A stretch of 64,000 nucleotides of DNA from Hyphomicrobium nitrativorans NL23 (GTDB taxonomy: Bacteria > Pseudomonadota > Alphaproteobacteria > Rhizobiales > Hyphomicrobiaceae), in assembly GCF_000503895.1 (NCBI RefSeq), contig NC_022997.1:2421821-2485820 (forward strand). Reading direction: 5' to 3'. Below, piece after piece: positions 24,156 through 37,747 of this stretch. The notes beneath the pieces are model-generated. The model did no database searches, had not been told where the DNA came from, and was given only the letters and a program-made list of their open reading frames with translations. Both the position numbers and the translations under genes were made by a program. The stretch's first letter is position 1, and every line of letters begins with the position of its first letter.

Positions 24156-24246
24156 GGCTCAATTCGGTCGGAGGTATACGGAGGTTCAAGCGCTTCGACC
24201 TTGCCTGAGCCTGACCGGCCTGTGAAGGGGCATTGCCTCTTGAAAT

Positions 24247-24261
24247 GTTCCCATTTTGTTC
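24247..24261 (+). promoter_or_regulatory. LexA (SOS) box of the imuA-imuB-dnaE2 operon
   Basis: GTTCCCATTTTGTTC is an exact GTTC-N7-GTTC, the alphaproteobacterial LexA operator. It lies 43 nt upstream of the imuA ATG, where repression of the operon is expected. Confidence 0.88.
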
Positions 24262-24304
24262 TATTCTTTCTCTGGACCTGTTTGAACCCACCGGAGAAAG
24301 CCCG

Positions 24305-25099
24305 ATGCCTCACGAAACGGCGCGCGCGGCCGCCGTGCGCGCGCTGCGCCAGCAGCTTGCCCGCCTGGAGGGCGTGCCGAAAGGAGAGCATGACGCTCTT
24401 TCGTTCGGCGTCCCGGCGCTCGACCGCCACCTCCCGCACGGCGGACTGGCTTTCGGGACGCTTCACGAGATCGCGCCTGCCACGGAAGCCGACCTGCCTT
24501 CGGCCTTCGGCTTCATGCTCGCGCTCCTCGGCCGGATGCCGGAGAAAACGCCGCTGCTTCTCCTGCTCGCCGCGAAGAAGCTCATGCGGTGCGGGCGTCC
24601 CCATGGCGCGGGCCTCAACGCATTCGGCCTCGCCCCCGCACGTCTGACGCTGGTCGAAACCACGGACGAAGCCGAAGCCCTCTGGGCCACGGAGGAAGCC
24701 CTCCGCGCCGATGGTCCCGCTGCTGTTGCGAGCGTGCTCGGCGGCAAAATCGATCTCAAGACGAGCCAGCGATTGCATCACACGGCCCGCGAAGCCGGCC
24801 TGCCGCTGCTGCTTCTGCGGCCGGACGGCATCGCGCCTGTCCCGACGGCCACCACGCGCTGGCGCATCGGCCGGGCTCCGGCCACACGCGACCGCTTCGG
24901 TCTGGTGGCGGCTTGGCGCTGGCATGTCACGCTCGAACGGTGCCGCAACGGACGGCCGGGAGACTGGGTGTTGGAGTTCGATCATGCCACGCATCGTTTC
25001 GCTCTGGCTGCCGCAGTGGCCGGTGCATCGCCGGCTCTCGGCAGAGCAGCGGGAACTACGTGCGACGGAGCGGAAGCACCCGCCGCGCGCGCCGGTTGA
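24305..25099 (+). CDS. imuA: ImuA, translesion-synthesis accessory protein
   Basis: 264 residues; ImuA is a RecA-like (SulA-related) protein needed with ImuB and DnaE2 for SOS-induced mutagenesis. Seen: ALSFGVPALDRHLPHGGLAF and GTLHEIAPATEADLPSAFGF at the N-terminus, TPLLLLLAAKKLMRCGRPHG, LDWTI-like strand PLLLLRPDGIAPVPTATTRW, and WRWHVTLERCRNGRPGDWVL near the end. GGAGAAAG precedes the ATG. It lies directly under a LexA box. Its 3' end overlaps the imuB start by 116 bp in another frame, so the last ~38 residues, which have little family character, are shared coding sequence. Confidence 0.9.
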   Translation: MPHETARAAAVRALRQQLARLEGVPKGEHDALSFGVPALDRHLPHGGLAFGTLHEIAPATEADLPSAFGFMLALLGRMPEKTPLLLLLAAKKLMRCGRPHGAGLNAFGLAPARLTLVETTDEAEALWATEEALRADGPAAVASVLGGKIDLKTSQRLHHTAREAGLPLLLLRPDGIAPVPTATTRWRIGRAPATRDRFGLVAAWRWHVTLERCRNGRPGDWVLEFDHATHRFALAAAVAGASPALGRAAGTTCDGAEAPAARAG

Positions 25100-26567
25100 T
25101 CCCACGCGGCCCTTCGTCATCGCCGAAGCGTCGGAAACGGCCCCTCGCATCGTCGCCGTCAATCCGGCTGCGGCAGATGCCGGTCTCGTCGCCGGCATGC
25201 GCCTTGCTGACGCGCGCGCACGCCTGGGTAGCCTGCAGGTGCGCGAAGCCGATCCCACCGCCGACACGGCCGCACTCGAACGTCTCGCACATTGGGCCAC
25301 GCGCTACACGCCCTCCGTCGCGCTCTTCGAAGCCGAGAGCGGAACCGACGGCCTCTTCCTCGACATCACCGGGGCAGCGCACCTCCTGGGCGGAGAAAAA
25401 AACCTGCTCGCGGATCTCGCAAAGCGCCTTGCTGCCGCCGCTCTTCCGGCGCGCCTCGCCGTTGCAGAGACGCCTGGCGCCGCCTGGGCACTCGCGCATT
25501 TTGCGCGCACAAACCGCCCGATCCTGCAGGCGGGAACGGAAGCCGACGCTCTCGCTCCATTACCCGTCGAAGCGCTCCGCCTCGATCCCGCAACCGCCGC
25601 TGCCCTGCGCCGCCTCGGCCTGAAACGCGTCGGCACGCTCATCGGCCAGAACCGCGCGCCCTTCGCCGCGCGCTTCGAAAAGGAGTTTCTGCTTCGCCTC
25701 GACCGGGCGCTCGGCCGCGCACCCGAACCGCTGGCGTTTCTCAGTCCTCCGTCCGCATACACGCAAGGCCGCACGCTGCTCGAACCCATCGACAGCGAGG
25801 AGGCTATCGTCGCCGTCGCAACGCGCTTGATGGGCGATCTCGTGCCCCGCCTCGAAGCGGACGGCAGAGGCGCACGCGCTCTGCGGCTCACTCTCTATCG
25901 CGTCGACGGCGTCGCGCACGAGGTTCCGCTCGGTCTCGCACTTCCGACCCGGAGCCCCGAGCACGTCGCGCGCCTCCTCCGTCTCCGCCTCGAACGGCAT
26001 GCGCGAAGCCTCGAAGCAGGCTTCGGCTTCGAGACGCTCCGTCTTTCCGTCACCGTGGCCGAGGCAATGGCGCCGCGCCAACGCACCTTCGCGCGGTCGG
26101 ACGAAACGGAAAGAGCGCGCCGCTGTACGCGTCTTCACGACGCCCTGCGTCAGCGCCTCGGCCCGCAAAGCGTCCGCCATCTGGCGCCCGCCGAAAGTCA
26201 CGTCCCTGAACGCAGCCAGATCTCCTGCATCGCGCCGGACGAAACATCGGCCTGGCCCGCGCTCGAAACTGTACAACCGCGCCCTCCCCTCCTGCTCGCG
26301 CATCCCGAACCTGCGAGCGTCGTCGCCCTCGTCCCCGACGGCCCGCCGCTGCGCATCCGCTGGCGCGGCACGCTTTCGACGGTCGCGGGCGCAGAGGGGC
26401 CGGAGCGCATCGCCGCCGAATGGTGGCGGGAGGGCGCGGATGCACCGACGCGCGATTATTACCTCGTCGAAGACGCGACCGGCCGCCGGCTCTGGCTCTA
26501 CCGCGAGGGCATTCCCGGCCGCGAAACAGCCGCCGCGTGCTGGTTCGTGCACGGCCTCTTTCCGTGA
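24984..26567 (+). CDS. imuB: ImuB, catalytically inactive Y-family polymerase
   Basis: 527 residues. It starts [20 protein letters not shown], the usual ImuB opening, and follows the Y-family layout: palm/fingers region ([20 protein letters not shown]), helix-hairpin-helix region ([20 protein letters not shown]) and a long C-terminal region. The catalytic acidic residues of active Y-family enzymes are not in their usual places, as in known ImuB. It is the hub that binds the beta clamp, ImuA and DnaE2 at lesions. GGAG lies 7 nt before the ATG at 24984, which supports a true overlap of 116 bp with imuA. dnaE2 follows after 28 nt. Confidence 0.92.
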
Positions 26568-26595
26568 GCCCCAAACTTCTCCCGAGCACAGGACC

Positions 26596-29500
26596 ATGAC
26601 CCGCTACGCCGAACTCGCCGTCACCACCAACTTCTCGTTCCTGCGGGGCGCATCTCATCCCGCGGAAATGGTGGCGGCTGCCGAAGCGCTCGGCCTCGAC
26701 GCCCTCGCGATCGCAGACCGCAATAGCTTCGCCGGGGTCGTGCGCGCCTACGACGAATGGAAGAAGCAGGAGAAAGAAAAACAGGAAACGCTGAAGCGGA
26801 ATGCGGTGAAGCTGATCGTCGCCACCCGACTCGTCACCGTGGACGGATTCGAAGCCATCGCCTACCCCACCGACCGCGAAGCCTATGCGCGCCTCTGCCG
26901 GCTCCTGACGAACGGCAAAGGAAAGACCGGAAAAGGCGAGCACACGGAATGCCACATCGGCTTCGAGGACATCCTCGCAGCGCCCGACGGCCAGATCCTC
27001 ATCGCGCTGCCGCCCGACACGCTCACCGCCAGCTTCGCAGAACGCCTCGAACGCCTCGCCCGCATCGCACCGGGGCGCAGCTATCTTGCGGGCGCGCACC
27101 GCTACCGGGGCGACGAGCCGCGCCGCCTCGGCCTGCTCAGCGAACTGGCCCGCCGCGCCGGCACACCCCTCGTCGCGACGAACGACGCGCACTACCACAC
27201 GCCCACGCGCCGCCCGCTCGCCGACGTGCTCACCTGCATCCGCGAGACATGTACGATCCACGAGGCCGGCTTCCGCCTCGCCGCAAACGCCGAACGCCAC
27301 CTGAAGCCGCCCGCCGAGATGGCGCGCCTGTTCTCATCCTTCCCCGACGCGATCGCACGCACCATCGAGATCTCAGACGCCTGCCGCTTCTCGCTCGGGG
27401 ATCTCAAGAACGAGTACCCCGACGAACCCGTTCCGCCCGGAAAGACGGCCCAGCAGCATCTCGAAGACCTGACCTGGAGCGGCGCCCGAGACCGCTATCC
27501 GCACGGCATCCCCGACGATGTTCGCGCGCGCGTCCTCGAAGAGCTCGGCATCATCGCCCAACTCGACTACGCGCGTTACTTCCTCACCGTCCACGACGTG
27601 GTGCGCTTCGCGCGCCGCGAAGGCATCCTTTGCCAGGGCCGCGGCTCGGCCGCCAACAGCGCCGTCTGCTATTGCCTCCGCATCACGGAGGTCAACCCCA
27701 ACGAAAGCAAGCTGCTTTTCGCGCGCTTCATCTCCGTGGAACGCGGCGAACCGCCCGACATCGACGTCGACTTCGAGCATGAGCGGCGCGAGGAGGTGAT
27801 CCAGTACATCTACAAACGCTACGGCCGCGAATACGCCGCCATCTGCGCCACCGTCATTCATTACCGCTCGCGCCGCGCCATCCGCGATGTCGGAAAGGCG
27901 CTCGGCCTCACACCCGATGTCACCGCGGCGCTGGCCAAGACGGTGTGGGGCAGCCACGCCGACGGCCTCCCCGACACGCACATCCGCGAAGCCGGCTTCG
28001 ATCCGGCGAACCCGCAGATCCATCGGGCCGTCACGCTCGCCCGCGCGTTGATCGGCTTTCCGCGCCATCTCTCCCAGCACGTCGGCGGCTTCATCCTCAC
28101 GCGCCGCCGCCTCGACGAAACGGTGCCCATCTCCAAGGCCGCCATGGCGGATCGCACCTTCATCGAATGGGACAAGGACGACATCGACACGCTCGGCCTC
28201 ATGAAGGTCGATGTGCTGGCGCTCGGGATGCTGAGCTGTCTCAGGCGCGGTCTCGATCTCCTCAAGACGCATTACGACAGGCCTTTGACGCTTGCGACCC
28301 TCCCGGGAGAGGACACCGACGACGCCAAGGCCGTCTACGCGATGCTTCAAAAAGCGGATTCCATCGGCGTGTTCCAGGTCGAGAGCCGCGCGCAGATGTC
28401 GATGCTGCCGCGCTTGCAGCCGAAAGAGTTCTACGACCTCGTCATCGAGGTGGCCATCGTGCGGCCCGGCCCGATCCAGGGCAACATGGTGCACCCCTAC
28501 CTGAAGCGGCGCCAAAATCCCGACGAGGTCACCTACCCCTCACCCGCGCCGCCTCACAATCCCGATGAGCTCAAGGAGGTGCTGAGCCGCACGCTCGGCG
28601 TGCCGTTGTTCCAGGAGCAGGCGATGCAGATCGCCATCACCGCCGCCGAGTTCACGCCCGACGAAGCGGACGGCCTCCGCCGCGCCATGGCCACCTTCCG
28701 CCACAACGGCAACGTCCATAAATATCGCGACAAGTTCATTCAGCGCATGACCGCGCGCGGTTACGATCCCGAATTCGTCGAGAGCTGCTTCGGTCAGATC
28801 GAAGGCTTCGGCGAATACGGCTTTCCGGAAAGCCACGCCGCGAGCTTCGCGCTCCTCGTTTACGCCTCCGCCTGGCTTAAGTGCCATTATCCGGATGTGT
28901 TCTGCGCTGCGATCCTGAACAGCCTGCCGATGGGTTTCTATCAACCCGCCCAGCTTGTGCGCGACGCACGCGAGCACGCCGTCGAAGTCCGCGCGCCCGA
29001 CGTCAACTTCAGCGCATGGGACTGCACGCTGGAGCCCGCCTCGGAGGGTCCGCACCGCTTCGCCGTGCGGCTCGGCCTCCGACAGATCGACGGCATGAGC
29101 GAGGCCGATACAAAACGGATCGTCGCCACACGTGGCAACGGCTATGCGAGCCTCGAACGTTTCGCCGCCGTCTCAGGTCTGCCCCGCGGCACGGTCGAAC
29201 GCCTCGCCGCTGCCGACGCGCTGCGCTCCCTCGGCCTGGATCGCCGCCGCGGTCTCTGGTCGGCGCGACGCCTCGAAAGCATCGGCCTCGCGGGCGAAGG
29301 CACGAGCCAGCGCACGACCGCACCGTCCGCACCCGACGCGCCACCGCTTCCGCTCTTCGCGCCGCACGTCAGCGACGACCTCTTCACCGAGCCCGAGACG
29401 ACGCTTCCTTCCATGCCGCTCTCCGAGCACGTGGCGGAGGATTACGTGACGACCGGCCTTTCGCTCAAGGCGCACCCTGTTGCATTCTTTCGTCCACGTC

Positions 29501-29904
29501 TGGTCCGGCGAGGCGTCATATCCAGCGAAGAATTGCGAGACGCAGCACGCACAGCCCACAACCGGCGCATCGCCATCGCGGGACTCGTGCTCACGCGCCA
29601 GATGCCGGGCGGCAAGAAGGTCGTCTTCCTCACCCTCGAAGACGAAACCGGGATCGCCAACGTCATCGTCTGGCCGAAGATCTTCGCCGCCAACCGCCGC
29701 ACGGTCATGTCCGCGCGCTTTCTCGGCGTAAGAGGCCGTGTGCAGCGCGCCGGCATTGTCATTCACGTCCTCGCCGAAAGCTTCTTCGATCTCTCGGGCG
29801 AGCTTGCGCATCTGCACGATCCGGAACGTTTGGCGGAAGCGGCCGCGACCTCGCCTCCGGCGTCGCACGACAGCATCCCCATCAAGAGCCGCGACTTCCA
29901 TTGA
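26596..29904 (+). CDS. dnaE2: Error-prone DNA polymerase III alpha subunit, DnaE2
   Basis: 1102 residues, the DnaE2 length. Domains in order: PHP ([20 protein letters not shown], then [10 protein letters not shown]); palm with [17 protein letters not shown] and [16 protein letters not shown] near residues 385-398, which carries catalytic Asp residues; [20 protein letters not shown] with the third Asp; fingers with [20 protein letters not shown]; helix-hairpin-helix; C-terminal OB fold ([20 protein letters not shown]). DnaE2 copies damaged DNA with ImuA and ImuB under SOS control. The operon context and LexA box agree. It is full length, with no frameshift seen. Confidence 0.96.
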
Positions 29905-29943
29905 AGCCGTCAATCGACCGATCGGAAAATAGTGCTTGCCCTA

Positions 29944-29967
29944 CGCTATATTCGCATGAATATAACA
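29944..29967 (+). promoter_or_regulatory. ModE-like operator (Mo-box) upstream of the TonB receptor
   Basis: CGCTATAT-N8-ATATAACA, an imperfect palindrome whose halves read CGCTATAT and, reversed, TGTTATAT. This matches the remembered ModE operator pattern CGNTATAT-N8-inverse, including the 8-bp spacing of the E. coli modA site. TATAAC inside it could be a -10 element with TTGCCC (29936-29941) as a distant -35, so binding would block transcription. It lies 48 nt upstream of the receptor start codon. Confidence 0.6.
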
Positions 29968-30015
29968 TTAAGGGGACTGAGGCCCCAAAAGGGCCGCATT
30001 CATTAGGGGGGACAA

Positions 30016-32265
30016 ATGTCCAAAAAAATGCTCGCGGCCATGGCCGCGGCCGGTCTTTGTGCGGGCATCGCATCGCCGGCACTCGCTCAGAACGCTGCCG
30101 CCACCACAGCAGGCGGCGACGTCACCGCCGACGAGGCGACGCCACTGCCGCCCATCGTCGTTCAATCGCCCTCGGAGCCCATCCGCCGCAAAAGCCGCGC
30201 GACGCGCCAGACGTCATCCCCGGCCCCCGGTGTGGTGATCGACGACGGCGCATCCTTCGAAGGAGACGGCGGCTCTGGCCGCGGGAGCGTCGGCGCCTTC
30301 ACGCTCGGCCAGATCGATATGGTCGGTGGATCGACCATCACCAACGAGGCCATGTGGACCTATAATAAGCAGTCGCTCGACGAAGCCGTGAGCATCGCCC
30401 CCGGCGTCTCCGCCCACACCACGGGCGGGCGGCGCAACGAGCGCGACATCTACGTGCGCGGCTTCGACCGCATTCGCGTGCCACTCTCCATCGACGGGGT
30501 GCGCGTCTATCTTCCGGCCGACAACCGCCTCGACATGAACCGCTTCCTGACGCCGGATCTCGCCGAGATCCAGATTCAGAAGGGCTATGTCTCGGTGCTC
30601 AACGGGCCCGGCGGCATGGGCGGCGCCATCAACATGGTCAGCCGCAAACCCACCAAGGCCTTCGAAGCGGAAGGCCGCGCCGGCATCGTGACCACGGGCG
30701 ATATCAACGATCTGAACCAGTGGAGCAGCTACGCCTACGCAGGTACGCGCCAGAAAGGCTATTACGCGCAGATCAGCGGCACCATCGTCGATCAGGATCA
30801 TTTCAACGTGTCGGACGATTTCCGTCCGCGCCAGTCCACGCCGTTCGACGCGCGCTTCCCCTACGAGAATGGCGGCATCCGTGAGAACTCGGATTTCCGC
30901 GACTGGCGCATCAACGCCAAGATCGGCATCACGCCGAACGCGACGGACGAGTACAGCATCAACTACACGACCCAGAGCGGCCGCAAGAACGCCCCGCTCC
31001 ATGTCGCCAAAGAGCAACTTCAAACGCAGCGCTACTGGCAGTGGCCGTGGTGGGACATCCAGAGCCTGTCGTGGCTCTCGAAGACCCAGCTTGGCAGCGC
31101 GTCCTATGTGAAAACCAACGTCTATTACAACACGTTCGAGAACCGCCTGAGTTCTTTCGACGACGCGACCTTCTCGTCGCAGCGCATGTTCAACCCCACG
31201 TTCAACAGCGACTATGACGACTTCGCTTACGGCGGCTTCGTCGAGATGGGCACCGAGCTCATTCCAATGAACACACTCAAGGGCGCGATCCACTACCGTC
31301 GCGACGATCACAGTGAGCGTAATATCCAGGCTCCCGACAACCCGGCGACGTTCACGGAGCCGTGGCACGGCAACGTGGAAGACACTTGGTCGTTCGCCAT
31401 CGAGAACACGTTCCACGCCGCCCGCAACCTCGATATCATCGCGGGCCTGAGCTACGATTATCTCGACGTGAAAGAAGCCAACGATTTCCGCAACGGCGCT
31501 TTCCTCAATCGCCAGACGACGACAGTCGACGCCTGGAACTATCAAGGCGGCGCGATCTACCGCTTCTCGGATACGGGCAGCGCCCACGCAACCGTCTCCA
31601 GCCGCACGCGCTTCGCAACCGTATTCGAGCGCTATAGCGAGCGTTTCGGATACGCCGTTCCGAACCCGGACCTCGCACCGGAACGTTCGACCAACTACGA
31701 GATCGGCGCGACCGAAACGTTCTTCGGTCAGGCGCGCGTGTCAGGCGCCGTCTTCTACTCCGACCTCGAAGACTCGATCCAATCGGCCTACATCATCCGT
31801 CCCTCCGACGGAGCCATCCTCTCCCAGAACCAGAACGTGACCGGCGAGCATTACGGTTTCGAGGTTTCGGTCGACTGGGACATCGCACCGGGCCTGCGCG
31901 TCGGCGGCAACTACACTTACCTGAACCGCAGCTACGATTACATCACACCCGGCACGAAGCCCGAGGGAACGCCGGACCACGAGGCCTTCCTTTACCTGTC
32001 CTGGGATGTCCTCCCCAACCTCACGCTGACGCCGAGCCTTGCGCTCGCCAGCGACCGCTACAGCATCGTCTCAAGCGGACGCACGCGTACCTTCATCGAG
32101 ACGGGCAGCTATGCGCTCGCAAACGTGCAGGCCGAATATCGGTTCAACGACAACGCATCGGCCGCGATCGGCGTCACGAACCTGTTCGACGAGGACTATG
32201 AGCTCGTGGAAGGCTTCCCAGAGGCCGGACGCCAATTCTTCGCCAACGCGCGCGTGAAGTTCTGA
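30016..32265 (+). CDS. TonB-dependent outer-membrane receptor
   Basis: 749 residues: signal peptide (to ALAQ near residue 25), a possible TonB box (PPIVVQ, residues 45-50), plug domain (YNKQSLDEAVSIAPGVSAHT, RNERDIYVRGFDRIRVPLSI, then VSVLNGPGGMGGAINMVSRK), and a 22-strand-type barrel ending in FFANARVKF with the terminal Phe of outer-membrane proteins. It uses TonB-ExbBD energy to import a scarce solute. The substrate is not evident from sequence. A ModE-like palindrome lies upstream and a molbindin gene 70 nt downstream, which suggests molybdate or tungstate, possibly chelated. Iron or siderophore transport remains the default alternative. GGGGGGA precedes the ATG. Confidence 0.93.
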   Translation: MSKKMLAAMAAAGLCAGIASPALAQNAAATTAGGDVTADEATPLPPIVVQSPSEPIRRKSRATRQTSSPAPGVVIDDGASFEGDGGSGRGSVGAFTLGQIDMVGGSTITNEAMWTYNKQSLDEAVSIAPGVSAHTTGGRRNERDIYVRGFDRIRVPLSIDGVRVYLPADNRLDMNRFLTPDLAEIQIQKGYVSVLNGPGGMGGAINMVSRKPTKAFEAEGRAGIVTTGDINDLNQWSSYAYAGTRQKGYYAQISGTIVDQDHFNVSDDFRPRQSTPFDARFPYENGGIRENSDFRDWRINAKIGITPNATDEYSINYTTQSGRKNAPLHVAKEQLQTQRYWQWPWWDIQSLSWLSKTQLGSASYVKTNVYYNTFENRLSSFDDATFSSQRMFNPTFNSDYDDFAYGGFVEMGTELIPMNTLKGAIHYRRDDHSERNIQAPDNPATFTEPWHGNVEDTWSFAIENTFHAARNLDIIAGLSYDYLDVKEANDFRNGAFLNRQTTTVDAWNYQGGAIYRFSDTGSAHATVSSRTRFATVFERYSERFGYAVPNPDLAPERSTNYEIGATETFFGQARVSGAVFYSDLEDSIQSAYIIRPSDGAILSQNQNVTGEHYGFEVSVDWDIAPGLRVGGNYTYLNRSYDYITPGTKPEGTPDHEAFLYLSWDVLPNLTLTPSLALASDRYSIVSSGRTRTFIETGSYALANVQAEYRFNDNASAAIGVTNLFDEDYELVEGFPEAGRQFFANARVKF

Positions 32266-32282
32266 CGTCGCTCTTTCAAATT

Positions 32283-32322
32283 CGCCTGGCGTTATATATG
32301 TAAGAATATAGAACGCCAGGCG
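32283..32322. promoter_or_regulatory. Palindrome upstream of mop; ModE-like core inside a long inverted repeat
   Basis: Outer 11-bp arms CGCCTGGCGTT / AACGCCAGGCG enclose an AT-rich core. The operator-like part is CGTTATAT-N10-ATAGAACG (32290-32315), with halves CGTTATATAT and, reversed, CGTTCTATAT. It resembles the 29944 site but the spacing is 10, not 8. As RNA it would be a strong hairpin between the receptor and mop genes, so attenuation or RNA processing is an alternative reading. It ends 13 nt before the mop ATG. Confidence 0.55.
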
Positions 32323-32335
32323 GAAGGAACCCTCC

Positions 32336-32542
32336 ATGAAACTCAGCGCACGCAACGTCCTTCAGGGAAAAATCGTGGAGATCGTGAAGGGCGCCACCAC
32401 GGCCCATGTCAAGATCGACGTCGGCGGCACGACCATCACGGCCTCGATCACCAACGAGGCGGTCGACGACCTGAAGCTCGAAAACGGCATGACGGCATCC
32501 GCCGTCATCAAGGCGTCCGACGTTATGATCGGCGTCGCCTGA
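32336..32542 (+). CDS. mop: Molbindin (Mop), molybdate/tungstate-binding protein
   Basis: 68 residues, a single TOBE/Mop domain: MKLSARNVLQGKIVEIVKGA, TTAHVKIDVGGTTITASITN, EAVDDLKLENGMTASAVIKA, ending SDVMIGVA. Molbindins are small cytosolic hexamers that store or buffer molybdate (or tungstate). The length and the N-(V/Q)(L/F)xGKV and SVMxGV-type motifs are exactly those of stand-alone Mop proteins. AAGGAA lies 7 nt before the ATG. It lies between a TonB-dependent receptor and a periplasmic-protein gene, and directly after a ModE-like palindrome. The family is confident; the metal preference is not determinable. Confidence 0.93.
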   Translation: MKLSARNVLQGKIVEIVKGATTAHVKIDVGGTTITASITNEAVDDLKLENGMTASAVIKASDVMIGVA

Positions 32543-32566
32543 TAAAAGAAATCATGGAGTGACCGC

Positions 32567-33121
32567 ATGTCCCGATTTCGTCTTCTGCTCGCAGGCGCAG
32601 TGGTCGTCGGCGCGCTCGCTCCGGCCGGTTATGCGCACGAGCAGGGCCACGGCGGTGCTCAGAAAAAGGAAAGCACCTGCACCGAATTCATCTGGCCGCT
32701 CGAAACCGAGCGCGCATGGTTCCGCGCGAACGACGCCCTTCCGCTGAAATCGGGCGACACGTTCGCAACGCCTCCGACCGACAAAGCCATCCGCGTGCAG
32801 TTGCGCCCCTCCGCAAGTGTCGAGCTGCCCGCTCCACCCACCAGCACCCCGAAGCCGGACGACGCCAAGCGCTTCGCGGGTGTCATCCATTTCAAAGACA
32901 TCAAGGAAGGCCATTACCAGGTCGCGATCTCGACGAGCGGCTGGATCGATGTCGTGCAAGGCGGCAAAGCTCTCGAAGCGACCGCCCACACCGGCTCGCC
33001 CCACTGCGACGAGTTGCGCAAAAGCGTGCGCTTCGAGATCGCGGCCGGCCCGTTTTCCGTGCAAGTCTATGGTGTGCCCACCGACACGATCCGTTTCGCA
33101 GTCAGGCCCGCAGCCGACTGA
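32567..33121 (+). CDS. Periplasmic protein linked to the receptor-mop locus
   Basis: 184 residues with signal peptide (MSRFRLLLAGAVVVGALAPA and on to YAHE). The mature protein starts with a His-rich EQGHGG segment and contains CTEFIWPLETERAWF, GHYQVAISTSGWIDVVQGGK and PHCDELRKSVRFEIAAGPFS. It is a beta-rich domain of a family I recall from alphaproteobacteria, sometimes mislabelled homogentisate dioxygenase; that label is not supported here. Two Cys may pair. GGAG lies 7 nt before the ATG, 24 nt after mop, so co-expression is very likely. A periplasmic binding or chaperone role for the imported solute is inference only. Confidence 0.78.
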   Translation: MSRFRLLLAGAVVVGALAPAGYAHEQGHGGAQKKESTCTEFIWPLETERAWFRANDALPLKSGDTFATPPTDKAIRVQLRPSASVELPAPPTSTPKPDDAKRFAGVIHFKDIKEGHYQVAISTSGWIDVVQGGKALEATAHTGSPHCDELRKSVRFEIAAGPFSVQVYGVPTDTIRFAVRPAAD

Positions 33122-33365
33122 TCGATAATCCGCCAAATTGGCGGCATTCCCGATTGAACCAGAACCCTTGAAGCGTGTTTTCGCATCACCTTAGGGTGAT
33201 GTCCTGAGCGCGACCGCGCGGACGCTCGCCTGTCACCGAAATTCGGTATATCCCTGATTATTCACTGGAGACGCCGTCGTGGTCCCAGCTCTCAAGCCTG
33301 CAACGATGCGGGCTTCGCCCTTGGCTCGCAGCGGCGCGAGCCTCGAAATAAGGATCCGACCGGGC

Positions 33366-36300
33366 ATGTGGATCGTCCGCTACGCCATCGCACACCGCCA
33401 CACCGTCGGTGTCATGGCCATTCTGCTGTTCCTGTTCGGCGGCCTTTCAATGCGCGGCATGTCGACGGACATCCTGCCCCCCGTCAACATTCCGGCCATC
33501 AACCTCATCTGGACCTACCAGGGACTCAACGCGCCCGAGATGGCGAGCAAGGTGACCTCGTTCAGCGAGCTCGCCATCATGAACAACGTCGACAACATCC
33601 GCGAACTGCGCTCGGAGACGTTGAACGGCGTGGCTATCGTACGCGTCGCGTTCCAGCCCGGCACCAACGTTACCAATGCCTTCGCGCAGGTCACATCCGT
33701 CAGCCAGACCATCCTGCGCCGCATGCCGCCCGGCACCATGCCGCCGTTGATCATTCCCTATGTGCCATCGTCCGTTCCGGTGCTGCAGCTCGTGCTCGCC
33801 TCCGACACGCTGAACGACGGCGCGCTGTTCGACTACGCACGCCTTCAGCTTCGTGCGCAGATCCAGTCCATCCGCGGCCTGCGCCTCTCTTTGCCGTACG
33901 GCGGCGCACCGCGTCAGGTCATGATCGACCTCGACCCCGACAAGCTGCAAGCCTACGGCCTTTCCGCTAGCGACATCGCAGCCGCCGTCGCCACTCAGAA
34001 CCTCACGCTGCCGTCGGGCGCACTCCGCACCGGCGCACGGGAAATTCTCATCACCACCAACGCTAGCCCCGAGACAATCGAGACCTTCGCCGACCTGCCG
34101 CTGCGGTCGGTCGAAGGCCGCAGCATCAAGGTCTCCGATGTCGCAAGCGTCCGCGACGGCCAGGCCGTGCAGACAAATATCGCCCGCCTCGACGGGCAGA
34201 ACGCGGTGCTCGTCTCGATCCTGAAACTCGGCAACGCGTCGACCGTCGACATCATCCGCGAAATTCACCGCCGAATGCCGGAGCTGCGCGCGGCGGCGCC
34301 GGAGGGCGTCACCATCGCGCCCATCTTCGATCAGTCGGTGTTCGTCGAGAACGCGCTCAACTCCGTCATCGGCAAGGCGGTGATCGTGGCGCTTCTGGTC
34401 GCGTTCGTCGTCCTCGTCTTCGTGGGAAGCTGGCGCTCGTCGTTCATCGTGCTGACCTCCATTCCGCTCGCGCTCCTCGCCTCCGTCACAGGCCTCGCGT
34501 TTGCGGGCGAGACCTTCAACATCATGACGTTGAGCGGGCTTATGCTCGCCATCGGAATCCTGGTCGACAACGCGCTGGTCGAGATCGAGAACATCAACCG
34601 CAATCTCGAAAGCGGCGTGCCGCTGCGTGAAGCGGTCTTGAAAAGCGCGAGCGAAGTCGCCTTCCCCGAGTTCGTCTCGACGACGGCGATCTGCATCGTC
34701 TTCTCGCCGCTGTTCCTGCTCACGGGCACGGCCGCCTTCGTCTTCAAGCCGCTCGCGCTCGCCGTCATCTTCGCCTTGATTGCGTCCTACCTGCTCTCCC
34801 GCACGCTCGTCCCGTCGCTCGCGATGATGCTTCTGAAGCCGCACAGCGGTGCGCCGGGAGAGCACACCGGGCCTCGCTGGCATGCGGCTCTCGAACGCGC
34901 CATCACGCGCCTTGCGGAGCGCATGGGTGCGTCGGTTGACGCCCTCACCCGCCGCAAGGCCGTGCCGTTCGTGGCCCTCGCTGCCGTCGTGGCCGTCGGC
35001 GGATGGACAGCAACGCGATTGGGAAGCGAGTTCTTCCCCGAGACCGACGCGGGCATGATCCGCCTCTACGTGCGCGCCGATCCGGGCCTGCGCGTCGAGG
35101 AAACGGCACGCAAGTTCGCAGATGTCCAGCGCGCCATTCGCGAGGTCGTCCCCGCGCACGAAATCGGCTTCATTGCCGAAAACATCGGGCCGCCCGAACC
35201 GATCAATCTCGGCTGGATCGAGAGCGGTGTGATCGGCTCGTTCGACGGCGAGATCCTGATCCAGCTTGGCCGGGAGCGAACATCGACCGCCGCCCACGCA
35301 TCTGCCATCCGTGCCATGCTGCGCGAGCGCTTCCCGCAGCTCACGGTTTATTTCCGGCCCGCCGACGCGACCGCGCAGACGCTGGCGGGCTCCGCACAAA
35401 CCGCCATCGAAGTCCGCTTCATCGGACGCGACCGGCTGGGCAATGCCGAAGCCGCGCGCGAGTTGCAGGAACGCATACGCACCGTTCCGGGCGCCGTGGA
35501 CGTTGCGCTCCGTCAGGTCTCCAACCTGCCGAGCTATTACATCGAGATCGACCGCGTCCGCGCCCTGCAAATCGGCATCACGCCACAGGACGCCTCGACG
35601 GCCATCCTCTCGACGCTCGGCACGGCGGGCACGGTGACGCCAAGCTTCTGGAGCGACCCGGTGCAAGGCGCGGCCTACACGGTGCAGATCGTGGCGCCGC
35701 CGTCCCATCTCGTCGACATCGAGCAGCTCATGAACACGCCCGTGCGCTCTGCCGCGAGCGGACGCACGGTGCCGCTGCGCACGGTCGCGAGCCTCCAGGT
35801 GCGCCACGTGCCCGCCAATATCGACCGCACCACGCTCATGCCGACGCTCACCGTGCTCGCCAACGTCGAGGGCCGCGATCTCGGCGGCGTCTATGGCGAC
35901 GTGGCCGCCGTCATCGCAGACATCCAACCACGCTTGAAACCCGGCAACCGCATCGAGGTCGCAGGCCAAGCCCGCTCGATGACGCAAGCCTACGCCGAGA
36001 TGGCGGGTGGGCTCGTGCTTGCGGCGGTGCTCGTCTATCTGGTGATGGTCGTCAATTTCCAATCCTGGCTGCTACCCTTCATCGCCATGAGCGGCCTTCC
36101 CGTGGCCATCACCGGCGCCCTCATCGCCCTCCACGTCACGGGCACGCCGCTTTCGGTTCCCGCTCTCACCGGCCTCATCATGGTGATTGGCGTCTCGACG
36201 GCGAACTCGGTGCTCGTCACGAGCTTCGCCCGCGATAACCTGGCCAACGGCATGACGCCGCTCGCCTCCGCCATCGATGCCACCAAGACGCGCCTTCGCC

Positions 36301-36554
36301 CCGTCATGATGACCGCCATCGCCATGATCGCGGGCGTGCTGCCCATGGCGCTCGGCGCGGGCGAAGGCGGCGAGCAGAACGCGCCGCTCGGCCGCGCCGT
36401 CATCGGCGGTCTGTTGCTCGGCACCTGTGCGACGCTGTCGTTCGTGCCGTTCCTGTTTGCGTTGCTCGCGCGCGCACGCCCCAAAAGAGACATCGACGAC
36501 ATCGAGACCGCAAACCCCAAAGGGCGCGGCCATGAGCTGGCCACGAGCGGATGA
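33366..36554 (+). CDS. RND-family efflux transporter, inner-membrane subunit
   Basis: 1062 residues with the AcrB-type layout: helix 1 (HTVGVMAILLFLFGGLSMRG), porter domain, helices 2-6 (VIVALLVAFVVLVFVGSWRS; GLMLAIGILVDNALVEIENI carrying the helix-4 acidic residues of the proton relay), second porter domain and helices 7-12 (MTAIAMIAGVLPMALGAGEG). It exports drugs, metals or other solutes with proton energy; the substrate class cannot be fixed (the helix-4 DNALVEIEN form is of the HAE type rather than the metal CusA type). The ATG at 33366 is preferred over an upstream one. It overlaps the adaptor gene by 4 nt (ATGA). Note the unusual order of pump before adaptor. Confidence 0.95.
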   Translation: MWIVRYAIAHRHTVGVMAILLFLFGGLSMRGMSTDILPPVNIPAINLIWTYQGLNAPEMASKVTSFSELAIMNNVDNIRELRSETLNGVAIVRVAFQPGTNVTNAFAQVTSVSQTILRRMPPGTMPPLIIPYVPSSVPVLQLVLASDTLNDGALFDYARLQLRAQIQSIRGLRLSLPYGGAPRQVMIDLDPDKLQAYGLSASDIAAAVATQNLTLPSGALRTGAREILITTNASPETIETFADLPLRSVEGRSIKVSDVASVRDGQAVQTNIARLDGQNAVLVSILKLGNASTVDIIREIHRRMPELRAAAPEGVTIAPIFDQSVFVENALNSVIGKAVIVALLVAFVVLVFVGSWRSSFIVLTSIPLALLASVTGLAFAGETFNIMTLSGLMLAIGILVDNALVEIENINRNLESGVPLREAVLKSASEVAFPEFVSTTAICIVFSPLFLLTGTAAFVFKPLALAVIFALIASYLLSRTLVPSLAMMLLKPHSGAPGEHTGPRWHAALERAITRLAERMGASVDALTRRKAVPFVALAAVVAVGGWTATRLGSEFFPETDAGMIRLYVRADPGLRVEETARKFADVQRAIREVVPAHEIGFIAENIGPPEPINLGWIESGVIGSFDGEILIQLGRERTSTAAHASAIRAMLRERFPQLTVYFRPADATAQTLAGSAQTAIEVRFIGRDRLGNAEAARELQERIRTVPGAVDVALRQVSNLPSYYIEIDRVRALQIGITPQDASTAILSTLGTAGTVTPSFWSDPVQGAAYTVQIVAPPSHLVDIEQLMNTPVRSAASGRTVPLRTVASLQVRHVPANIDRTTLMPTLTVLANVEGRDLGGVYGDVAAVIADIQPRLKPGNRIEVAGQARSMTQAYAEMAGGLVLAAVLVYLVMVVNFQSWLLPFIAMSGLPVAITGALIALHVTGTPLSVPALTGLIMVIGVSTANSVLVTSFARDNLANGMTPLASAIDATKTRLRPVMMTAIAMIAGVLPMALGAGEGGEQNAPLGRAVIGGLLLGTCATLSFVPFLFALLARARPKRDIDDIETANPKGRGHELATSG

Positions 36555-37747
36555 GAGAAAAAGCCATGACGCTGTCCCGCCTTGCCCTTGTCACCTCCTC
36601 CGGACTGCTGTCCATCGCGGCCGTCTCCGGCGTCTTCCTCCTCGCGAGTTGCAAGCTGGCCTACACGGAAACCGCCGCGCAGCCGCCCGCTGCCCTCGCG
36701 AAAGCCGCAAACCCCGCACCGAGCGTCCGTGTCGTCAACCCGGAGATCCTGCGCGAAGCAGGGAGCATCACGCTGACCGGCCGCACCGCCCCCGCGGAGC
36801 AAGCCGTCGTCGGCGCCCGCGCGAGCGGCATCGTCCAGAAACGCAACGTCGACATCGGCGACAGGGTGGCCGAAGGCGACGTCCTGCTCGTCATCGACGC
36901 GCCGGAAGTGACGCAGGAGCTTGCCCGCGCCCGCGCAGCCATCCGGCAGGCCCGCGCGCGCCTGGATTTCGCACGCGTCAACGCACGCCGCGCGGAAACG
37001 CTCGTCACCCAGGGACACCTCTCGGAACAGACCCGCGACGAACGCATCGCGACCGAGCGCGTCTCGGAAGCCGATCTCTCAGCCGCCGAAGCCGAGGTGC
37101 GCCGCCTGGAAGAGATCCAGGGATTCCTCACGCTTCGCGCGCCGTTCGCCGGAACCGTCGTTGCCCGCGCTGTGGAGCGGGGCGACCGCATCACCACGAG
37201 CGATGCCCAGGCGAGCGGCCCGCTGTTCCGCATCGCGCGCCTCGACGAGTTGCGCGTCGAAATCGACATCCCGCAGACCGCAGCCCTCAAGGTTCGGCCG
37301 GGCGGGGCGGCGCGCGTCACCTTCGCAGAGCTGCCCGGCGAAACGTTCGAAGCCAAGGTCGTGCGCAGCGCGGGCCTGATCGACCAGGCCTCCTCGACCA
37401 TGCGCGCCGAGCTCATGATGGCCAACCCCGAGAAACGCATCCCGGCCGGACTCACGGGCCTCGTCAGCCTCGACGTCGCGCGCGACCGGATGCCCGTCAG
37501 CGTGCCGACCAACACACTCGTCACGCGCGATGGCCGCCAGAAAGTCGCCGTCGTGAACGACGAGGGCACGGTGGCATTTCGTCCGGTCTCAGTCGGTCGC
37601 GATTTCGGCGAACGCGTCGAGATCGTCGCCGGGCTCACGGAACAGGATCGCGTGATCCTGAGCCCGAACGCCCTTCTGCGCGAGGGCGACGAGGTGGAGG
37701 TGACGACCGCCACCGCCCAGCGCGCGACGGGGCAGAAAACGCGCTGA
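36551..37747 (+). CDS. RND efflux periplasmic adaptor, lipoprotein
   Basis: 398 residues. The N-terminal helix ends in a lipobox (LLASC), so it is probably an inner-membrane-anchored lipoprotein. Membrane-fusion-protein features: barrel-sandwich hybrid halves (AEQAVVGARASGIVQKRNVD and LTLRAPFAGTVVARAVERGD), a helical hairpin rich in Ala/Arg/Glu between them, beta-barrel (LRVEIDIPQTAALKVRPGGA) and membrane-proximal domain (VSVGRDFGERVEIVAGLTEQ). It couples the RND pump to an outer-membrane channel, which is not encoded here. It is translationally coupled to the pump by the ATGA overlap. Repeat family A lies immediately downstream. Confidence 0.93.
   Translation: MREKAMTLSRLALVTSSGLLSIAAVSGVFLLASCKLAYTETAAQPPAALAKAANPAPSVRVVNPEILREAGSITLTGRTAPAEQAVVGARASGIVQKRNVDIGDRVAEGDVLLVIDAPEVTQELARARAAIRQARARLDFARVNARRAETLVTQGHLSEQTRDERIATERVSEADLSAAEAEVRRLEEIQGFLTLRAPFAGTVVARAVERGDRITTSDAQASGPLFRIARLDELRVEIDIPQTAALKVRPGGAARVTFAELPGETFEAKVVRSAGLIDQASSTMRAELMMANPEKRIPAGLTGLVSLDVARDRMPVSVPTNTLVTRDGRQKVAVVNDEGTVAFRPVSVGRDFGERVEIVAGLTEQDRVILSPNALLREGDEVEVTTATAQRATGQKTR

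Follow-up and report, generated by a model that had tools for sequence, protein, structure and literature searches.

Molybdate is held to diffuse across the outer membrane through porins (PMC8264917). In E. coli, modA is a target of the regulator ModE, whose consensus operator reads ATCGNTATATA-N6-TATATANCGAT (PMC545781, PMC2700814). In this study, we analysed a window of 64,000 nucleotides from Hyphomicrobium nitrativorans NL23 (NC_022997.1, positions 2,421,821 to 2,485,820; coordinates are those of the window unless another stretch is named), in which genes for a TonB-dependent receptor, the molbindin Mop and a 184-amino-acid protein designated P184 follow a ModE-type palindrome. We consider it likely that the three genes form an operon for the acquisition of molybdenum, possibly of tungsten, which is repressed by ModE and depends on TonB-driven transport. 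The locus shares with the E. coli ModE regulon the sequence and spacing of the box and modA as a target, but it differs in that the ModE-like protein comprises only the helix-turn-helix (HTH) part and that an outer-membrane receptor is among the putative targets (PMC545781, PMC2700814).

An outer-membrane route for molybdate as such is not new, because a route composed of secreted ModA and the outer-membrane protein IcmP, which needs the type VI secretion system, has been reported in Pseudomonas aeruginosa (PMC11734730). This route likewise leads molybdate by way of the outer membrane and ModA, but it is type VI-dependent and, as described there, includes no TonB receptor controlled from a ModE box (PMC11734730). 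Among the open-access papers listed in our literature searches, none was seen to report a TonB receptor that is controlled by ModE or transports molybdate, which does not establish absence from print. Metal-regulated TonB receptors for other metals include ZnuD, FrpB4 and LutH, and OprC is close in fold to the receptor described here. They have in common with it the plug-barrel architecture under a metal regulator. In contrast, regulator and neighbouring genes of the present receptor concern molybdenum, which is taken up as an oxyanion. The parts of the locus are of known kinds; their combination and the P184 family appear to be new.

The palindrome at positions 29944-29967, to which no strand is assigned, reads CGCTATAT-TCGCATGA-ATATAACA, exactly as described in the initial annotation of the window, and is located 72 bp upstream of the receptor start (ATG at 30016). 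In the form CGCTATAT-N8-ATATAACA it deviates by one mismatch from CGNTATAT-N8-ATATANCG, which is identical to the core of the E. coli consensus. It very probably represents a ModE operator. A TATAAC motif at 29961-29966 sits inside the box and is a possible -10 element. Because of this overlap, repression is the simplest reading of the action of ModE. Iron regulation of the receptor was set aside, as the 200 bp upstream contain no Irr- or Fur-like site (the best Irr match deviates at 6 of 14 positions, the best Fur match at 10 of 19) and one-mismatch matches to a loose six-letter RirA-type motif are of little meaning.

The receptor gene (30016-32265, plus strand) codes for 749 amino acids with Plug and beta-barrel domains (PF07715, 54.6 bits; PF00593, 149.1 bits; both above cut-off). 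None of the curated NCBIfam models reached its cut-off, and the two nearest named receptors, with 71-72% identity, are both labelled Hyphomicrobium. Relatives at E ≤1e-60 are present in 6 of 385 genomes of the class, including that of H. nitrativorans itself. Two of the five others carry boxes at the receptor start (G039 with 0 and 1 mismatches, G266 with 1 and 1), one of the G266 boxes overlapping the first codons if translation starts at the methionine of MRYIHTNIT; the receptors of G043, G073 and G285 have no box at ≤2 mismatches.

A broader scan of named genomes with an alignment of four receptors yielded 269 relatives, and the best 80 were inspected in upstream windows of 560 bp (shorter in L040, L051 and L094). 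Boxes with 0, ≤1 and ≤2 mismatches were found in 6, 40 and 54 loci, compared with means of 0, 0 and 0.05 loci in 60 dinucleotide shuffles and with 1, 1 and 2 of 74 control windows taken 1.5-2.06 kb downstream. As the codons for R-Y-I can spell half a box, the position of the boxes relative to coding was checked. A box outside any possible receptor coding, because it precedes an in-frame stop or the first start that the receptor could use, is present in 25 of the 40 loci at ≤1 mismatch and in 36 of the 54 at ≤2. Conservation of the palindrome at orthologous receptors, by which the initial annotation had proposed to judge its idea, is thus borne out by half of the relatives at one mismatch or less. 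Carriers at this level include loci labelled Hyphomicrobium, Methyloligella, Methylorubrum, Azospirillum, Afipia, Nitrobacter, Mesorhizobium, Povalibacter, Sphingopyxis, Sphingobium and Paracoccus, genera among which, from their names, we take methylotrophs, diazotrophs, nitrifiers and sphingomonads to be represented.

Within the genome of H. nitrativorans, scanned over its single contig of 3,653,837 bases, the box matches 32 places at ≤3 mismatches and the reversed pattern 27. Most places at this threshold are therefore chance matches, and only sites with fewer mismatches are informative. One mismatch occurs at just two places, the receptor promoter and a site preceding a LysR gene, after which comes a gene for an NAD-dependent formate dehydrogenase. 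Two mismatches occur at five places and in a shifted register of the LysR site. One of the five, 15-38 bp upstream of the modA reading frame and beside a modE-like gene, puts a box directly before a molybdate transport gene. Another is the palindrome before mop, and a third (C1:2818199-2818222, corresponding to L023:4200-4223) precedes a molybdopterin oxidoreductase gene by about 200 bp. The remaining two, located 3′ of a gene taken by eye for secA and within another TonB-receptor gene, look like chance matches. Upstream of the 15 other PF00593 receptors of the genome, four of them with windows shortened to 291-442 bp, there is no box at ≤3 mismatches, leaving one carrier among 16 TonB receptors.

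The modE-like gene (E = 1.3e-23; matched part G000:C1:1666527-1666772) adjoins modA, and modBC are sited elsewhere in the genome. Matches to TIGR00638 at E 0.01 are confined genome-wide to the mop gene of the window and the C-terminus of ModC. ModE control, as initially suggested, gains support from the operator in the promoter, the modE-like gene (below the TIGR00637 cut-off) and the box at modA; a classical ModE repressor is not supported, because the molybdate-binding domain is missing from the protein. The same puzzle of molybdenum sensing by an HTH-only ModE has been remarked for Desulfovibrio (PMC545781). Near the receptors of the 80 relatives we found 17 ModE relatives in 16 other loci, 15 of which are short (118-178 amino acids) and two of which (263 amino acids) contain a Mop domain.

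In the window, receptor, mop and P184 are separated by short gaps. The mop gene (32336-32542, plus strand) encodes a single-domain molbindin of 68 amino acids (TIGR00638, 78.2 bits; cut-off 55). Stretches of up to 6 kb on each side of the 80 receptors contain relatives of P184 in 28 loci, ModE in 16, Mop in 11, ModA in 8 and ModB in 3, and at least one of ModE, ModA, ModB and Mop is near the receptor in 32 of 80. Further neighbours, named from one representative per cluster, are a MolA/BtuF-like binding protein (12 loci), a FecCD permease (12), an MbnH-like di-haem protein (12), a DHOR di-haem protein (6) and DUF2478 (5). Importer proteins of locus L063 match PDB entries of MolBCA from Haemophilus influenzae (HI1470-HI1472; PMC4031551). 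For the permease, located about 4 kb away from the receptor, HI1471 (MolB) ranks first (1.2e-66, followed by a haemin permease at 1.3e-52), and for the binding protein HI_1472 (MolA) ranks second (6.1e-18) behind an unnamed periplasmic binding protein (2.1e-35). The genome of the window differs in having modA and modBC, MolBCA genes not having been searched for elsewhere in it.

Some receptor loci contain further exact boxes: at L063:2130, at L063:9724 before a DUF2478 gene, at L049:3227 before a gene for a solute-binding protein, and at L080:3824 between DUF2325 and DUF364 genes. They are possible additional ModE targets.

The third gene of the locus (32567-33121, plus strand) encodes P184, which appears by eye from its N-terminal sequence to be exported. 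Neither Pfam nor NCBIfam contains a family matching it at E 0.001. Its structure model (predicted local distance difference test, pLDDT, 88.6) is a beta-sandwich weakly similar to PPC and collagen-binding domains, which points to no function. Residues C38, L79, W126, C147 and K152 are invariant in 28 aligned sequences, namely that of the window and those of 27 loci, L086 having been left out. Fusions of the P184 family to the C-terminus of ModA occur in L066 (Povalibacter uvarum) and L069, beside modE and a boxed receptor. Searched for by itself, P184 occurs at nine places in 8 of the 385 genomes of the class. Five of the nine are linked to molybdenum: the window, L135 (beside boxes and a receptor), L136 (in the order P184-modA-modB), L137 (with a one-mismatch box at the P184 start) and L142 (3′ of mop). 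The assumption of the initial annotation that receptor, Mop and the periplasmic protein constitute a cassette gains support from the ModA-P184 fusions and the P184-modA-modB order.

Genes of the MbnH-like cluster and P184 relatives share a stretch in eight of the 80 loci (L042, L043, L048, L052, L079, L093, L105 and L111). This recalls the MbnP/MbnH pair, although only one representative of the cluster has been identified, P184 matches nothing in Pfam or NCBIfam, and in the window it has no MbnH-like gene next to it. It is a speculation that the invariant Trp126 might be a target.

The proposal of an operon builds on four computed results: the box, how rare it is in the genome, how often it recurs at relatives of the receptor, and the linkage of the genes. 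When molybdenum is sufficient, the ModE-like protein would occupy the box at 29944-29967 over the presumed -10 element and keep the operon off. Under scarcity the receptor would be produced and, driven by TonB, would bring molybdate, as such or as a complex, through the outer membrane, an energised uptake that we infer from what is known of this receptor class. P184, a small periplasmic beta-sandwich protein, may help the cargo to reach ModA. ModABC would then bring it into the cell, where Mop could bind and perhaps buffer it. Regulation and gene company speak for molybdenum or tungsten as the cargo; sequence does not tell apart the free oxyanion and a chelate, or molybdenum and tungsten. A wider generalization, which we regard as evenly balanced between right and wrong, is that a widespread class of ModE-controlled TonB receptors actively imports molybdate or tungstate, free or chelated, through the outer membrane, that P184 is a new periplasmic molybdenum-binding or relay domain handing cargo to ModA, and that the HTH-only ModE senses molybdenum through a separate partner, possibly Mop from the same operon. 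ModE-controlled TonB receptors of this kind would mean that some bacteria expend energy on gathering molybdenum when there is very little of it, with a bearing on nitrogen fixation, denitrification and formate oxidation. Moreover, a receptor clade for which no NCBIfam model reaches its cut-off would obtain a substrate class, and the P184 family a first function class.

Several observations weigh against this proposal. The ModE-like protein scores 84.6 bits, compared with a TIGR00637 cut-off of 98.5, matches only in its DNA-binding HTH part and has no TOBE/Mop match and hence no molybdenum-binding domain. A scan for the sigma-70 consensus called no promoter at the box; like the terminator scan of the region, it was uninformative. 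No box at ≤2 mismatches was found in 26 of the 80 receptor loci, two of which had short upstream windows (L051, 62 bp; L094, 184 bp). Eleven of the 26 have a box at three mismatches and 15 have none, and all five loci from metagenome-assembled genomes labelled Bartonella are among the 26. For 15 of the 40 one-mismatch loci, the frame that contains the boxes is open to the receptor, and in L049, L067 and L073 likely first codons, reading R-Y-I, coincide with a box. Conservation of the peptide could therefore add to the box count. Coding coincidence as the sole source of the boxes was rejected, since 25 of the 40 have a box that cannot be receptor coding, even if 15 do not. Four of the nine P184 places (L138-L141) show no evident link to molybdenum within about 1.5 kb on each side. 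Finally, the receptor is nearest in sequence and fold to siderophore, colicin I, haem, B12 and copper receptors, so that the cargo cannot be read from the fold.

One alternative is that the receptor imports a chelated metal, the chelator being, for instance, a catecholate that binds both iron and molybdenum. ModE would then repress the gene since molybdate occupies the chelator, and uptake of molybdenum would be one purpose or a side effect. We regard this as possible but doubtful. The solved relatives are mostly siderophore receptors, with the copper receptor OprC also ranking high, and the model of the receptor, a barrel with a pLDDT of 82.2, is closest to Fiu and OprC. There is also precedent in Azotobacter, where TonB siderophore receptors are metal-regulated via VnfA1 (PMC9542535). 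However, the lack of an Irr- or Fur-like site upstream of the receptor speaks against this alternative, and the linked genes include those for ModE, ModA, Mop and MolABC-like transporters. Moreover, no chelator-biosynthesis family appeared among the ten neighbour representatives run against Pfam, to which this comparison was confined.

Another alternative concerns the second palindrome, CGTTATAT from 32290, which the initial annotation took for a second ModE box flanking the receptor. As an operator, it would allow mop to be controlled independently of the receptor. It fits the box with two mismatches, and three of the four half-sites of the two palindromes do share YGYTATAT, as noted initially; for those before mop, a hairpin is at least as good an explanation. 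The palindrome is embedded in a longer inverted repeat (32283-32322, plus strand), and none of 200 shuffles folds as well as this strand (z = -5.1). The corresponding stems of five Hyphomicrobium-type relatives reach z values of -4.7 (L032), -5.4 (L036), -3.2 (L037), -2.7 (L035) and -1.7 (L033). In L032, L035, L036 and L037, the letters of the flanking stem have changed and remain complementary (GCCTGGCG/CGCCAGGC in the window, GTCTGGCCC/GGGCCAGAC in L037), but the right half of the box is gone; the left half CGCTATAT is kept in L032, L035 and L036. L033, which retains a two-mismatch box before mop and has a weak stem, speaks for an operator in that locus. The stem of L044, in contrast, is wholly different and contains no box, and in L039, L041 and L045 receptor and mop are merely 18-19 bp apart. 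An Rfam search of 29800-33400 gave no match at E 1. On balance, a stem-loop in the transcript between receptor and mop seems to fit this pattern better, and a second operator is unlikely. Of the two boxes initially said to flank the receptor, the first, rare in the genome and recurrent in relatives, thus holds, whereas the second is more likely a stem-loop and its role as an operator, with the right half lost in four relatives, is unsupported or at best open.

A coincidental box in front of an ordinary siderophore receptor can be dismissed: it would agree with the 32 places at ≤3 mismatches against 27 for the reversed pattern, but it is ruled out by the boxes of at most one mismatch in 40 of 80 relatives against a shuffle mean of 0.0, 25 of them outside possible receptor coding.

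The operon is preceded by a run of open reading frames (24233-29904) which we take to be a mutagenesis cassette of the ImuA/ImuB/DnaE2 type, and followed by an RND efflux pump with its adaptor (33279-37747). Both look unrelated to it.

The only other one-mismatch box of the genome (C1:1704795-1704818, L020:6796-6819) precedes the LysR gene, which is followed by the gene for a metal-free NAD formate dehydrogenase (L020:8111-9310). Seven further formate dehydrogenase loci (L144-L150) have no box within the stretches examined, and the enzyme as a general ModE target is a side lead only. Among four pairs of LysR and formate dehydrogenase genes, three have a box at ≤2 mismatches before LysR (that of H. 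nitrativorans, L052 with two mismatches and L092 with one; L073 has none), and the arrangement is possibly a molybdenum-sparing switch.

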